Positions 48,493-54,187 of a stretch of DNA of 64,000 bases are shown here, in pieces. The DNA lies in NCBI GenBank assembly GCA_014529675.2, contig CP076040.1:2685894-2749893 (forward strand), read 5' to 3'. The notes below the pieces were generated by a model, which was given only the letters and a program-made list of their open reading frames with translations, had not been told where the DNA came from and searched no databases. The stretch is from Opitutia bacterium ISCC 52. Its GTDB lineage: Bacteria; Verrucomicrobiota; Verrucomicrobiia; Opitutales; UBA2995. Within the stretch, counting starts at the first letter, position 1; each line of letters starts with the position of its first letter. Position numbers and translations under genes: made by a program.

Positions 48493-49134
48493 CTATTGGG
48501 AATGTGGAGGTTTCATTTCCTTTTCAAGGGACAATATCCAATCAGCTATTTCTTGAGGCCGTTCAGGATAGGCATCCCCTTCCAATCGCGGTTGCCAGGA
48601 CCTCAAAAAAGTAAGGGCCGCAAAACGCTTACCCGATTCTGTCAACAAACGTGCGTAACTCTTTCCCAACAAATACGGAAACCCTTCAATCGCGACACCC
48701 TCCCCTAAATAACCCAGAGCCAGCGATGGATCTTCAACGACCGTTTCTGCGATAAAGGCACCCGTTTGAAAGCACTCTGGATCATCTACAAAGTAAGGTC
48801 TCGAATTCTCAAAAAAATCTAGAGCATCCCGACCATAATCATTTCGCGAGCGATCAGCATTCCATACGGGTAGATCGAAAGCGATCGTCTGAGAGGCCAA
48901 TCGCCAGTAGGCTAAATTCGAAGGATTCAGTGCAGTTGCAAAGCGGTAACTGTCAATAAGCCGGGGTTCATCTTTGTTCAACCAAGCGCCGTAACCCTGC
49001 ACCCAGAACCAAGAACTCACTAAGCTAGCTCCCGTCGAACCTGGCCTCTGGTTCTCTAAATCCAATCGAGAACTAAACAGATTAAGAAAAACGATACCTA
49101 ACAACGTTAGTACTATGATGGTCCAATTTCTCAC
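48493..49134 (-). CDS. Membrane-anchored protein of unknown function, linked to an ABC exporter
   Basis: The 213-residue product has one N-terminal hydrophobic helix (IIVLTLLGIVFLNLF) followed by a helical region resembling TPR repeats (SYRFATALNPSNLAYWRLA, GAFIAETVVEDPSLALGYLG). Its start overlaps the permease gene upstream by 4 bases and its end is 1 base from the menA start, so it is in the ABC operon. An accessory subunit of the exporter is a reasonable guess. Confidence 0.6.
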   Translation of the reverse strand: MRNWTIIVLTLLGIVFLNLFSSRLDLENQRPGSTGASLVSSWFWVQGYGAWLNKDEPRLIDSYRFATALNPSNLAYWRLASQTIAFDLPVWNADRSRNDYGRDALDFFENSRPYFVDDPECFQTGAFIAETVVEDPSLALGYLGEGVAIEGFPYLLGKSYARLLTESGKRFAALTFLRSWQPRLEGDAYPERPQEIADWILSLEKEMKPPHSQ

Positions 49135-49946
49135 AGCTCTCTCCTCCTAAACACCCATGCGGAAGCCACGAAAAATAGAATCGCGTAAAGGATCTCGCCA
49201 CCCATGAAACTTATAAATTTACCAGCCGCCAACGCACCATCGTACCAAAAAATTCCCGGAACGATGGATAGGTCAAATCGCGGCAAGAGGTAGCGAAGTA
49301 CTTGGGAAAAAGCAGCCGCAATCCCCTTCGCACCTTCGTACATCCCTTCGGCAGCACTGGCAAATACCGACACAGACCACACCAACAGCGACAAAACGAT
49401 GGAGAACAGGAACGTCCTGGAAAGCACAGACAATAGAACGACCAACGCCCCCAACACTAACCATTGGAATAATATAAACAGGCACAATTGGACCCACACC
49501 CCAATGGTCGGCGTTAACGTATCGATTCCCTCAATTGCGAGACCTCCTGCGTTGTCCCAAACCAGCAGGTTCAAGACAACGATGGCAACACAGCCTGCGA
49601 ATGCCAAGGCCAACCAACTCCCAATCAGCTTACCGGCTAGATACTCGCTACGCTGAAGGCCGCGGACCAAGTGGGTGCAGAGAACACCTGATTCGAAATC
49701 AGCATATAGCTGAAGAGCGATCAGAATCACGAGAACGACCCCCAAACTCAGAAGGACGGTCCCAAGACCAAAATCATAGATCAACTTGGGTGCAGAAGCC
49801 CCTAAAGGAAGTTGGGCCAGCGATTGAACTCCAAGAATCAGAAAAACAAGTCCGAGCAAGCAGACCTGATACCACCGATTGTGCAACACGACTTCCAACA
49901 AGGTATCGGTCGCGACCAATCGTATACGCTTTAAGGTATCAAACAT
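49131..49946 (-). CDS. ABC-2 type transporter permease
   Basis: The 271-residue protein has about six transmembrane helices with an N-terminal LVATDTLLEVVLHNRWYQ segment and the FESGVLCTHLVRGLQRSEYLAGKLIGSW loop typical of ABC-2/NosY-like permeases. It overlaps the ATPase gene by 8 bases upstream and the anchored protein by 4 bases downstream, so the three form one unit. Substrate unknown. Confidence 0.8.
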   Translation of the reverse strand: MFDTLKRIRLVATDTLLEVVLHNRWYQVCLLGLVFLILGVQSLAQLPLGASAPKLIYDFGLGTVLLSLGVVLVILIALQLYADFESGVLCTHLVRGLQRSEYLAGKLIGSWLALAFAGCVAIVVLNLLVWDNAGGLAIEGIDTLTPTIGVWVQLCLFILFQWLVLGALVVLLSVLSRTFLFSIVLSLLVWSVSVFASAAEGMYEGAKGIAAAFSQVLRYLLPRFDLSIVPGIFWYDGALAAGKFISFMGGEILYAILFFVASAWVFRRREL

Positions 49947-50673
49947 CCTCCTGCTCCTTCCTCAATGATTCCAGGAACCACTGTTTTAAACTGGAATCAA
50001 ATCTGGGTGGTCCTTCAAAAATCGATTGGCCGCGATGAAGCACCACTATCTGCTCGAACAAGGAATCTGCCCCATCCAACAAATGCGTGGCTAGTAGCAC
50101 CGTCTTGCCTGCTTCGACCAACTCCCGCAACAGCTGCTCCGTTTTTTGGCGAGCTAATGGATCCAGACCATCCATCGGCTCGTCGGCCACAATGACCTGC
50201 GGTTCATGAATCAGTGCCTGAGCCAGGGCCAGACGTTGAATTCCCCCCTTGGAAAGCTGCCCGATTCGTCGAGTCGCTTGATCCGGAAGGGACGAAAGGG
50301 CCAAACAATCTTCCACGCGAGTGTCTAAGCGCTTGCCACTTAGACCGCCTAATTTCCCACAGAGATAGAGGAAGCTTCGTGGAGTGTGATGCGTTGGAAA
50401 CCTTGGCCGCTCCGGAATGTAAGCCACTTGGTTTTGCTGTGCCAGCTCCCTGGGCGTTTTTCCGAATAGTTTCACTCGGCCATCATAGTCGGGCAATAAC
50501 CCACAGAGAATCTTGAGTAGCGTGGTTTTACCGGACCCGTTGCCACCGATCACTCCCAGCAAGGTTCCCGATTTCACTTCCAAGTCAAGGTGATCCAAGG
50601 CCAGCCTGCCTTGTCGTCCCCACCCTTCAGAATACTCTTTCGACAATCCGTCGATGCTGATTACCGGATCCAT
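49939..50673 (-). CDS. ABC transporter ATP-binding protein
   Basis: This 244-residue ATPase has Walker A IGGNGSGKTTLLKIL, Q-loop AYIPERPRFP, signature LSKGGIQRLALAQAL, Walker B VIVADEPMDGLDPL and switch His LATHLLDGA. The layout resembles CcmA/NosF-type exporters. It energises the permease with which its 3' end overlaps by 8 bases. Acylphosphatase is 8 bases upstream. Confidence 0.92.
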   Translation of the reverse strand: MDPVISIDGLSKEYSEGWGRQGRLALDHLDLEVKSGTLLGVIGGNGSGKTTLLKILCGLLPDYDGRVKLFGKTPRELAQQNQVAYIPERPRFPTHHTPRSFLYLCGKLGGLSGKRLDTRVEDCLALSSLPDQATRRIGQLSKGGIQRLALAQALIHEPQVIVADEPMDGLDPLARQKTEQLLRELVEAGKTVLLATHLLDGADSLFEQIVVLHRGQSIFEGPPRFDSSLKQWFLESLRKEQEDV

Positions 50674-50681
50674 CTAACCCG

Positions 50682-50960
50682 TTATCGGATCGTAAAGGCC
50701 TTGTGTTGGCGGGTGCGCTCAACTTCAGATTGTGTCTTATCCCGGATGAAACTGGCCATCTCCTCGTTGAGAGCCTTGATAAAGGCCACGCATTCTTCCC
50801 GGTCTCCTTCCAGCTCTAACTGAACACGGGCATCAGCCAGATTTTTCACAAACCCAGTCACTTCGTATCCCTTGGCCAAATTAAATGTGGTAAAGCGAAA
50901 ACCCACGCCTTGGACGTGTCCTTCGAAGTAGACTTTGAAGTGAGATACGCTGTCTTCCAT
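50682..50960 (-). CDS. acyP: Acylphosphatase
   Basis: The 92-residue protein has the signature GHVQGVGFRF at residues 14-23 (catalytic Arg22) and GFVKNLADARVQLELEG with catalytic Asn40. It hydrolyses acyl phosphates in the cytoplasm. It is first on the minus-strand run leading to the ABC exporter and menA, divergent from the acidic protein gene at 51137. Confidence 0.93.
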   Translation of the reverse strand: MEDSVSHFKVYFEGHVQGVGFRFTTFNLAKGYEVTGFVKNLADARVQLELEGDREECVAFIKALNEEMASFIRDKTQSEVERTRQHKAFTIR

Positions 50961-51136: not shown

Positions 51137-51844
51137 ATGAAAAACTTCGATCACGATCAATTTTCAGAGGGCGACTGGGAGGAAAAAGGCGAGCTAGCCT
51201 GGAACGAATTCGATTGGGAATTATTCCTCCAGAGACAAGACAAAGAAGCGAAACGCTTTATCCGCACCTACAATAGTCTGTCCCCTCAATCAAATCGGAT
51301 CGACGAAACTGCACGACTCATGGGCTGGGACTCCTCCGATTGGTCCATGAACGATTTGAATTTCGATGAACTTCTCGAAGAAAGCACCTGGAAGACCGAG
51401 GGCTTTGGAGAAGAAGATGATACGGACCTAGATCCATACACCCTCCACCGCCATCCGGTGTATGTTGCGGTGCACGGCCTGTTCGACTCCGTACTTCATC
51501 TCTGTGAATCTTTGCTTAATGAAACAACAAACGACAACTTGTCTCCCAAACTCTGCTTCGACCTCGTAAAGTCGATCAGCGAAGGGAAGCTAGAGTCACT
51601 ACTTGCACTACAATCACTGGACTTGGCAGATTATGCCCTTACCGTGAGTGAGCTGAAAAGAGCACTCAAATCATTGAACCAGAGTTTTAAAATTCTGGAA
51701 TCCATTCATTCCGCAAAAAATCCAAAGCTCTACGCCTTTGAGACGGAATCGATCAGTCGCCTGTTCGATATCCGCGAAATCTGGCTAAGAGTCATGAAAG
51801 ACTGCCGAGAAGAACTTGATCGTCGAATAAAAGACGGCGAGTAA
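51137..51844 (+). CDS. Acidic protein of unknown function, upstream of a sigma-like gene
   Basis: The 235-residue product is unusual: the first 110 residues are strongly acidic and rich in Trp and Asp (GDWEEKGELAWNEFDWELF, WDSSDWSMNDLNFDELLEES). The second half is helical (LCFDLVKSISEGKLESLLAL, SELKRALKSLNQSFKILESI). No signal or membrane helix is seen. I do not recognise a family. It precedes the sigma-like gene by 32 bases, and its acidity would suit a partner of a basic nucleic-acid-binding protein. Confidence 0.6.
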   Translation: MKNFDHDQFSEGDWEEKGELAWNEFDWELFLQRQDKEAKRFIRTYNSLSPQSNRIDETARLMGWDSSDWSMNDLNFDELLEESTWKTEGFGEEDDTDLDPYTLHRHPVYVAVHGLFDSVLHLCESLLNETTNDNLSPKLCFDLVKSISEGKLESLLALQSLDLADYALTVSELKRALKSLNQSFKILESIHSAKNPKLYAFETESISRLFDIREIWLRVMKDCREELDRRIKDGE

Positions 51845-51876
51845 CTCTCCACTCTTTCTACAAAACCAATCCCATC

Positions 51877-52692
51877 ATGGGCTGGCTATCTATCCGCACA
51901 TTCAATCACACTCAGGTCGCTTCGCGCGGCAAACTTCGTAAACAACTTCGCAAAGCCGCTAGGGGGAATACCCAAGCGTTTGAAGTCGTTACTGATCAGT
52001 ATCTGAACTTCATTACTGAGTTCCTGGTCATTTCCGGCTATCACGAAGAAGACCGAATTCAGGGCTATTGCCGCGAAGTACTGCACAATATTTGGCTTCG
52101 TAGTGCTTACATCCGTCGCGTCTCCGACTTCGAAAGGCAGCTGTTTATCTTCCTTAAACAGATTCCGATCAATGTAGCACCCTTCCAGAACCTGTTGACT
52201 CAGCGACTGGTAATGCTCAACTCGCTGCAGCGCTTCCTACTAGTTGGCCGTGATCTCGAATCCTGGAGCAGCAAAAACCTGTCTCTCGCCATGCGCGTCC
52301 CAAAATACGAATTGAGGAAACCCCTTTACGATGCCTGGAAGACATTGGTTGGCTTCAGACTTTCAGACCTCGATTTCAACACCAACGAGTGTATGGAAAA
52401 AGTGGTAGAAAACATGGAAGGCGCCTTGGATCATATCCAACAACGTCGACTGTGCAAGAAAGTGAAGGAAAACGCGATGGCCTCACAATTTAAGGCCGAC
52501 TGTTTGAACCTGCGCTGCGAGTTAGTCGAGCTTAGACAAAACGCTCGCTGGGAGCAAGAAGCCAGAAGTCAGTTTTTCAAGGACCTGAGAGAAGATATTG
52601 CTATGATCATGCAATGGAAGCCAGAGCTGGGCGAACGCCTGAAGAATCAGGTTTCATTTCAGTGCCTCCACTTGGAAACGAACGGAAGCTAG
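51877..52692 (+). CDS. Degenerate ECF sigma factor-like protein
   Basis: In this 271-residue protein, residues about 27-95 resemble sigma region 2 (AARGNTQAFEVVTDQYLNFI, then a helix ending RQLFIFLKQIP). Residues about 113-160 resemble region 4 with a helix-turn-helix (LNSLQRFLLVGRDLESWSSK, NLSLAMRVPKYELRKPLYDA). Core-binding and promoter-reading residues are poorly conserved, so function as a true sigma factor is uncertain. An extra basic, coiled C-terminus (170-271, including RRLCKKVKENAMASQFKADC) is not found in normal ECF factors. Call based on pattern only. Confidence 0.5.
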   Translation: MGWLSIRTFNHTQVASRGKLRKQLRKAARGNTQAFEVVTDQYLNFITEFLVISGYHEEDRIQGYCREVLHNIWLRSAYIRRVSDFERQLFIFLKQIPINVAPFQNLLTQRLVMLNSLQRFLLVGRDLESWSSKNLSLAMRVPKYELRKPLYDAWKTLVGFRLSDLDFNTNECMEKVVENMEGALDHIQQRRLCKKVKENAMASQFKADCLNLRCELVELRQNARWEQEARSQFFKDLREDIAMIMQWKPELGERLKNQVSFQCLHLETNGS

Positions 52693-54111: not shown

Positions 54112-54187
54112 TGGTGGAGCCAGACGGGATCGAACCGACGACCTCCTGAATGCCATCCAGGCGCTCTTCCAACTGAGCTATGGCCCC
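54112..54187 (-). tRNA. tRNA-Ala (anticodon GGC)
   Basis: 76 bases including an encoded CCA. The acceptor stem GGGGCCA pairs with TGGCTCC (one G-T), D-arm contains AGCTCAGTTGGAAGAGC, anticodon stem CCTGG/TCAGG encloses loop ATGGCAT (GGC), and the T-arm contains GGTTCGATCC. All standard for bacterial tRNA-Ala reading GCC/GCU. Confidence 0.96.

Follow-up and report, generated by a model that had tools for sequence, protein, structure and literature searches.

What does a protein with the fold of a sigma factor do if it lacks the residues by which sigma factors read promoters, and what does it share with the strongly acidic protein encoded just before it? These questions are raised by two adjacent genes in a 64,000-nucleotide stretch of the Opitutia bacterium ISCC 52 genome (Verrucomicrobiota), which we refer to as the window. 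A preliminary description, made from the DNA alone, had placed an acidic, Trp-rich protein and a degenerate sigma-like protein in tandem here. The two are same-strand open reading frames at exactly 51137..51844 (+; 235 residues) and 51877..52692 (+; 271 residues), separated by 32 bp (51845..51876, +); across the 26 pairs found in the named collection this gap measures 16-92 bp. The upstream product is indeed both acidic and Trp-rich (pI 4.65, 49 Asp and Glu against 28 Lys and Arg, 7 Trp), and its family has a median pI of 4.5 and about 3% Trp. Comparison of the window with its nearest relative indicates purifying selection on both the acidic gene (dN/dS 0.011/0.183) and the sigma-like gene (0.040/0.631), which together with their breadth of occurrence rules out chance open reading frames. 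Upstream of the pair and divergent from it (49131-50960, minus strand) are genes for a membrane protein, an ABC-type ATPase and a small acylphosphatase-like protein, named by eye; the sole tRNA gene of the window, tRNA-Ala (ggc), lies at 54112-54187 (minus strand).

The sigma-like protein is a derivative of the ECF sigma factors by ancestry. A profile of 18 family members searched against 177,635 PDB sequences gave six matches up to E 10, all sigmas or a PhyR (AlgU twice at 8e-5, BldN, SigG1, a PhyR and SigW), and a 26-member profile returned the same six. Single-sequence scans of Pfam and NCBIfam gave sub-threshold matches only, with no sigma family above cut-off (for the window protein, HTH_16 at E 0.0085); of 18 members scanned, 7 match Sigma70_r4_2 of Pfam with an E-value no worse than 0.1, the best at 9e-4. 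Among genomes of the order the profile matches in 80, strongly in 57 and in the other 23 weakly and to ECF-like proteins only; the weak matches cover short stretches, and the 13 that were retrieved all carry Pfam sigma regions and are sigma factors. A further sigma-type protein (locus L151, 368-940, minus strand), at a position unrelated to the pair, has a clear Sigma70_r2 and no Sigma70_r4 match at E 0.001, its region 4 being worn.

An AlphaFold2 model of the sigma-like protein, computed from an alignment of 26 sequences, is confident (pLDDT 86, pTM 0.83) and contains both sigma domains, with five helices of sigma2 type (residues 17-94), four of sigma4 type (106-158) and five more (167-259). 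Model, fold matches and profile agree on a sigma2-like domain at residues 17-97 (51925..52167, +), which ends early, just past the start of sigma2.3/2.4, and these together with the alignment define a sigma4-like domain at residues 105-160 (52189..52356, +), in which the recognition Arg is replaced. The top Foldseek rows are SigW and CnrH, weak by E-value (0.006 to 0.06), and SigG1 (7qh5) and SigJ (5xe7) are also among the matches. A second structural comparison matches CnrH with Z 11.0 (rmsd 3.8, 146 residues) and SigW with Z 9.8-10.1 (rmsd 3.4-3.7, 144-147 residues), and finds a PhyR chain, 4qic_A, at Z 8.4 over 119 residues. In the structures that match best as rigid bodies, an anti-sigma holds the ECF (CnrH-CnrY and SigW-RsiW), and RNA polymerase-bound sigmaE aligns with both domains of the model only at about 28 Å rmsd. 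Sigma2 and sigma4 are thus predicted to adopt the closed arrangement of anti-sigma-bound ECFs; in the published account of CnrH-CnrY, the -10 surface of sigma2 has sigma4 buried against it, and the whole complex can be superimposed on PhyR-NepR (PMC4598750). The connection between the two domains is about 10 residues long, from which an open state would be hard to reach.

Compared with ECF controls, all 26 family members lack about 31-48 residues between sigma2 and sigma4. W73, the conserved Trp of sigma2, and L114, the first Leu of sigma4, stand 40-43 residues apart in all 26 members and 74-88 apart in 10 ECF controls (11 controls matched, and both columns aligned in 10), and the family profile has 9 residues where AlgU carries 47. 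The absent segment comprises the end of sigma2.4 and the sigma2-sigma4 linker, which in the solved ECF complexes described in PMC8103513 enters both the active site of the polymerase and its RNA exit channel. The DNA-reading residues are also gone. In an alignment of 48 family rows (47 distinct sequences, the window protein being counted twice), none has the -10-reading Trp, a pattern present by motif in 12 of 13 controls, and two have the sigma4 recognition Arg, with the recognition-helix motif present in 13 of 13 controls. A loose form of that motif occurs in 8 of the 48 rows, starting near residue 107, 192 or 237 and never in the recognition helix. At the columns where sigma2.2 contacts the polymerase clamp, Asp, Gln and Glu are found in 2, 7 and 7 of 48 rows; the Gln stands at column 66 in 7 rows and at the neighbouring column 67 in 20, so that the alignment of sigma2.2 is unsure by one position. 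By the two features tested, spacing and DNA-reading residues, the protein is not a standard ECF, and the sequence indicates that it is probably not a working sigma. The expectation of sigma2-like and sigma4-like parts poor in typical functional residues is in this way borne out by profile, fold matches and alignment.

Instead of the lost residues, the family has conserved features of its own, R81-x-S-D-F-E-x-x-L-xxx-L and W130. Conservation of sigma2 and sigma4 equals that of the remainder of the protein (about 2.1 bits per column). Beyond sigma4, the model and family scans delimit an extra helical domain without family match (residues 161-259; 52357..52653, +). Its best-conserved part (residues 205-220; 52489..52536, +) is a helix, K206...L210..R213....E218.R220, that is strongly conserved across the family, with the five named residues invariant in 26 sequences. 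An extra C-terminal domain had been proposed from the outset and exists, but it is not basic as had been thought: residues 164-271 have a pI of 5.4, and the basicity of the protein (pI 9.3 overall) resides in the sigma2-like (pI 10.0) and sigma4-like (pI 10.6) domains.

The acidic protein is modelled as a helical bundle that follows a partly disordered, Trp-rich N-terminal part of pI 4.2 (pLDDT 81, pTM 0.76), the predicted four-helix bundle occupying residues 107-234 (51455..51838, +). Across 38 sequences M1, E24, W27, W64, P107, N181 and R213 are invariant, and W22, K174, D211, R218, R224 and others are nearly so; the N-terminal part includes a W22-x-E24-x-x-W27 motif (51200..51217, +), of which W22 is present in at least 90%. 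Single-protein scans of Pfam and NCBIfam gave sub-threshold matches only, and no anti-sigma family matched any of the 38 members at E 0.01. A profile search of PDB sequences gave one match, 2p01, at E 0.096, which is probably due to chance. The fold search retrieved generic four-helix bundles (pectin methylesterase inhibitor, 2rld of the S23 family, and Avd) and no anti-sigma among the matches listed; the matches fall below the level at which the tool is trusted for bundles, and we therefore take no function from them.

By profile, 306 of the order's 372 genomes contain the acidic protein, as do 205 of the 231 of good quality, and a single-sequence search found it in 74 of 88 relatives. Named relatives are mostly Opitutales, Opitutaceae and Puniceicoccaceae, all Verrucomicrobiota. 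In a phylum-wide sample the profile matches in 65 of 288 genomes, 43 from the order and 22 from elsewhere; these 22 matches are mostly weak, and many lie within proteins of 380-420 residues. One protein of comparable size is encoded in the same genome, about 1.27 Mb from the pair (locus L149, 982-2169): the C-terminal half of this 395-residue protein is distantly related to the acidic protein (E 1.4e-5) and follows a separate N-terminal part of about 150 residues, an architecture that recurs in many genomes outside the order and has no Pfam or NCBIfam family. Several reduced genomes of 0.6-1.1 Mb (families f7, f25 and f27) retain the acidic protein, suggesting a basic cellular task; for families f26 and f28, with comparably small genomes, there is no acidic match among the matches listed. 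In family f2 (for example G008, G050 and G064) the matches cross one in-frame stop near the C-terminal end, and the proteins are probably shorter there.

The sigma-like gene is found by profile in 57 of the 372 genomes of the order. In all 57, spread over six family-level groups, it lies directly downstream of the acidic gene on the same strand (50 read as DNA and 7 from coordinates; upstream stands the acidic gene or, where the contig breaks off, its end, and in G004 only the last 25 residues of the acidic protein are present). At E 1e-6 the sigma-like gene was not found outside the order, the eight matching genomes of the 288 in the phylum sample all belonging to it, and out-of-order matches in a class sample of 236 are weak, at E 2e-5 or worse. 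The two genes do co-occur and the model has a sigma fold, so that neither observation named in the preliminary description as refuting its proposal was made. The pairing is one-sided: the sigma-like gene is never found without the acidic gene, whereas the acidic gene (306 of 372 genomes) mostly occurs without the sigma-like gene, and the original notion of paired genes holds in one direction only. In the named collection a sigma-like gene is present at 26 of 80 acidic loci, and 11 of the other 54 have less than 600 bases downstream, too few to tell.

In a phylogeny of 104 acidic proteins, of which 47 have a sigma-like gene, 52 have none and 5 are unknown, the presence of that gene changes six times, at least four of them on well-supported branches, compared with a mean of 33 after shuffling. 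So few changes fit one old gain followed by several losses; transfer of the pair between lineages may also have occurred. The sigma-like gene comes and goes at a single site: in some genera of family f10 it follows the acidic gene, and in another genus the acidic gene is directly followed by a gene that is PhoD-like, a name given by eye. The gene next downstream of the sigma-like gene varies among lineages. The neighbours of the pair give no transcription-related clue: there are ABC-transporter genes upstream and, in several families, a PhoD-like gene downstream. Of the 63 loci that could be placed, 39 have ABC-transporter ATPase genes near the acidic gene, mostly upstream on the opposite strand. 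A search for positions in the acidic protein that track the presence of the sigma-like gene gave no significant signal, with only 4-6 independent changes available.

With moderate confidence, we propose that the second gene encodes a sigma mimic that acts through protein binding, with the acidic protein as its main partner. Descended from an ECF, it would no longer read or open promoters, having lost the -10 Trp, the recognition Arg of sigma4, the greater part of the sigma2.4 helix and the sigma2-sigma4 linker; sigma2 and sigma4, joined by about 10 residues, would sit closed as in anti-sigma-wrapped ECFs; and it would have gained a helical C-terminal domain with a conserved helix of its own. 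With its promoter-reading parts lost, the mimic most likely binds protein rather than DNA, and a basic, closed sigma fold that lacks DNA-reading residues and is always encoded beside the acidic gene likewise suggests protein binding. The likeliest direct partner would be the acidic four-helix protein encoded just upstream, whose acidic N-terminal part (pI 4.2) could meet the basic sigma domains (pI about 10). Both the direct contact and the modulation are inferred, as would be any connection with RNA polymerase or a further sigma. The acidic protein may have an older and wider role, which the mimic would modulate, in the lineages that keep its gene, by sigma mimicry as PhyR acts on NepR. Because the acidic protein mostly occurs without the mimic, its main function does not require the mimic. 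A protein present in most of the order's genomes that lack the sigma-like gene cannot exist only to inhibit the sigma-like protein; it must do something else in those genomes, and the counts (306 against 57 of 372) rule out a dedicated anti-sigma. Of the two readings offered in the preliminary description, the reuse of a sigma fold for another role draws support from the ECF profile homology, the confident model and the loss of DNA-reading residues and linker. The other, an unusual module of sigma/anti-sigma type, is a conjecture: the acidic partner matches no known anti-sigma family and mostly occurs alone.

Other explanations of the pair start from the same observations. The sigma-like protein could be an active, non-canonical ECF that binds RNA polymerase at a special class of promoter, with a C-terminal regulatory extension like those of ECF41, ECF42 and ECF238 and the acidic protein as its regulator. 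Its clear ECF ancestry, the partly retained sigma2.2 Gln and the even conservation of sigma2 and sigma4 noted above would fit such a protein, and C-terminally extended ECFs are described as common (PMC8999054); but the linker and sigma2.4 end are absent from all 26 members, the -10 Trp is lost in 48 of 48 rows and the sigma4 Arg in 46, and it is the linker that in true ECFs enters the active site and RNA exit channel (PMC8103513), so that we hold this explanation to be quite unlikely. Less easily set aside, though still unlikely, is a PhyR-like circuit in which the acidic protein is the anti-sigma of another sigma of the order and the sigma-like protein a decoy that removes it. Such a circuit accords with the confinement of the mimic to lineages possessing the acidic protein, with weak sequence matches to PhyR and with a sigma fold predicted to be closed like those of PhyR-NepR and CnrH-CnrY (PMC4598750). 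Against it, a third component was not found, the acidic protein matches no anti-sigma family and the mimic has no receiver domain. NepR is, moreover, much smaller than the acidic protein.

The two genes might also be mere neighbours, the sigma-like gene having an unrelated role and staying in place through a shared promoter or inertia. Most genomes have the acidic gene without the sigma-like gene, and conservation extends to what surrounds the acidic gene, as the ABC-transporter ATPase genes at 39 of 63 loci attest. An arrangement that holds in 57 of 57 cases and six family-level groups, with differing genes next downstream, makes this account very improbable. A sigma mimic that binds the acidic protein remains our preferred reading. 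Its boldest extension, which we put forward tentatively and consider doubtful, is that the order evolved a sigma-mimicry switch independently of the Alphaproteobacteria, in which a permanently closed, DNA-blind ECF decoy binds a lineage-core four-helix factor that acts on RNA polymerase or sigma; the domain of this factor, which is wider in the phylum, would then represent an undescribed transcription regulator.

If the sigma-mimic reading is true, natural sigma mimicry would extend beyond the Alphaproteobacteria and to proteins without a receiver domain, and ECF sigmas could become pure protein-binding modules through the loss of one segment. An uncharacterised acidic protein that most of the order retains, including genomes of less than 1 Mb, would in addition become open to a first approach, the presence of the mimic in some genomes and its absence from others offering a natural comparison.

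A literature search, which did not extend to the full ECF classification tables, found no description of the pair. The closest known systems each share part of its architecture. ECF (group IV) sigmas such as AlgU, SigW, CnrH and BldN have the same sigma2 and sigma4 by profile and fold, whereas the sigma-like protein lacks the full sigma2.4 and linker, has its -10- and -35-reading residues replaced and carries an added helical C-terminal domain. ECF41, ECF42, ECF56 and ECF238 likewise follow sigma2 and sigma4 with an extra domain, and extended ECFs are described as sigmas with regulatory extensions, for example SnoaL-like or TPR (PMC8999054); here, by contrast, the extension is helical and without family match, and the sigma part looks inactive. 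PhyR is a sigma mimic that serves the stress response of Alphaproteobacteria; the protein shares with it a sigma2-sigma4 domain whose promoter-reading parts, and perhaps polymerase-contact parts, are degenerate and which is fused to another domain. It differs in its phylum, in having no NepR-like neighbour and in lacking a receiver domain (no receiver family was found by Pfam among 18 members, and the C-terminal part is all-helical in the model), and its profile is no nearer to PhyR than to ordinary ECFs. The sigma-like protein would thus be at most an analogue of PhyR, and not a PhyR itself.
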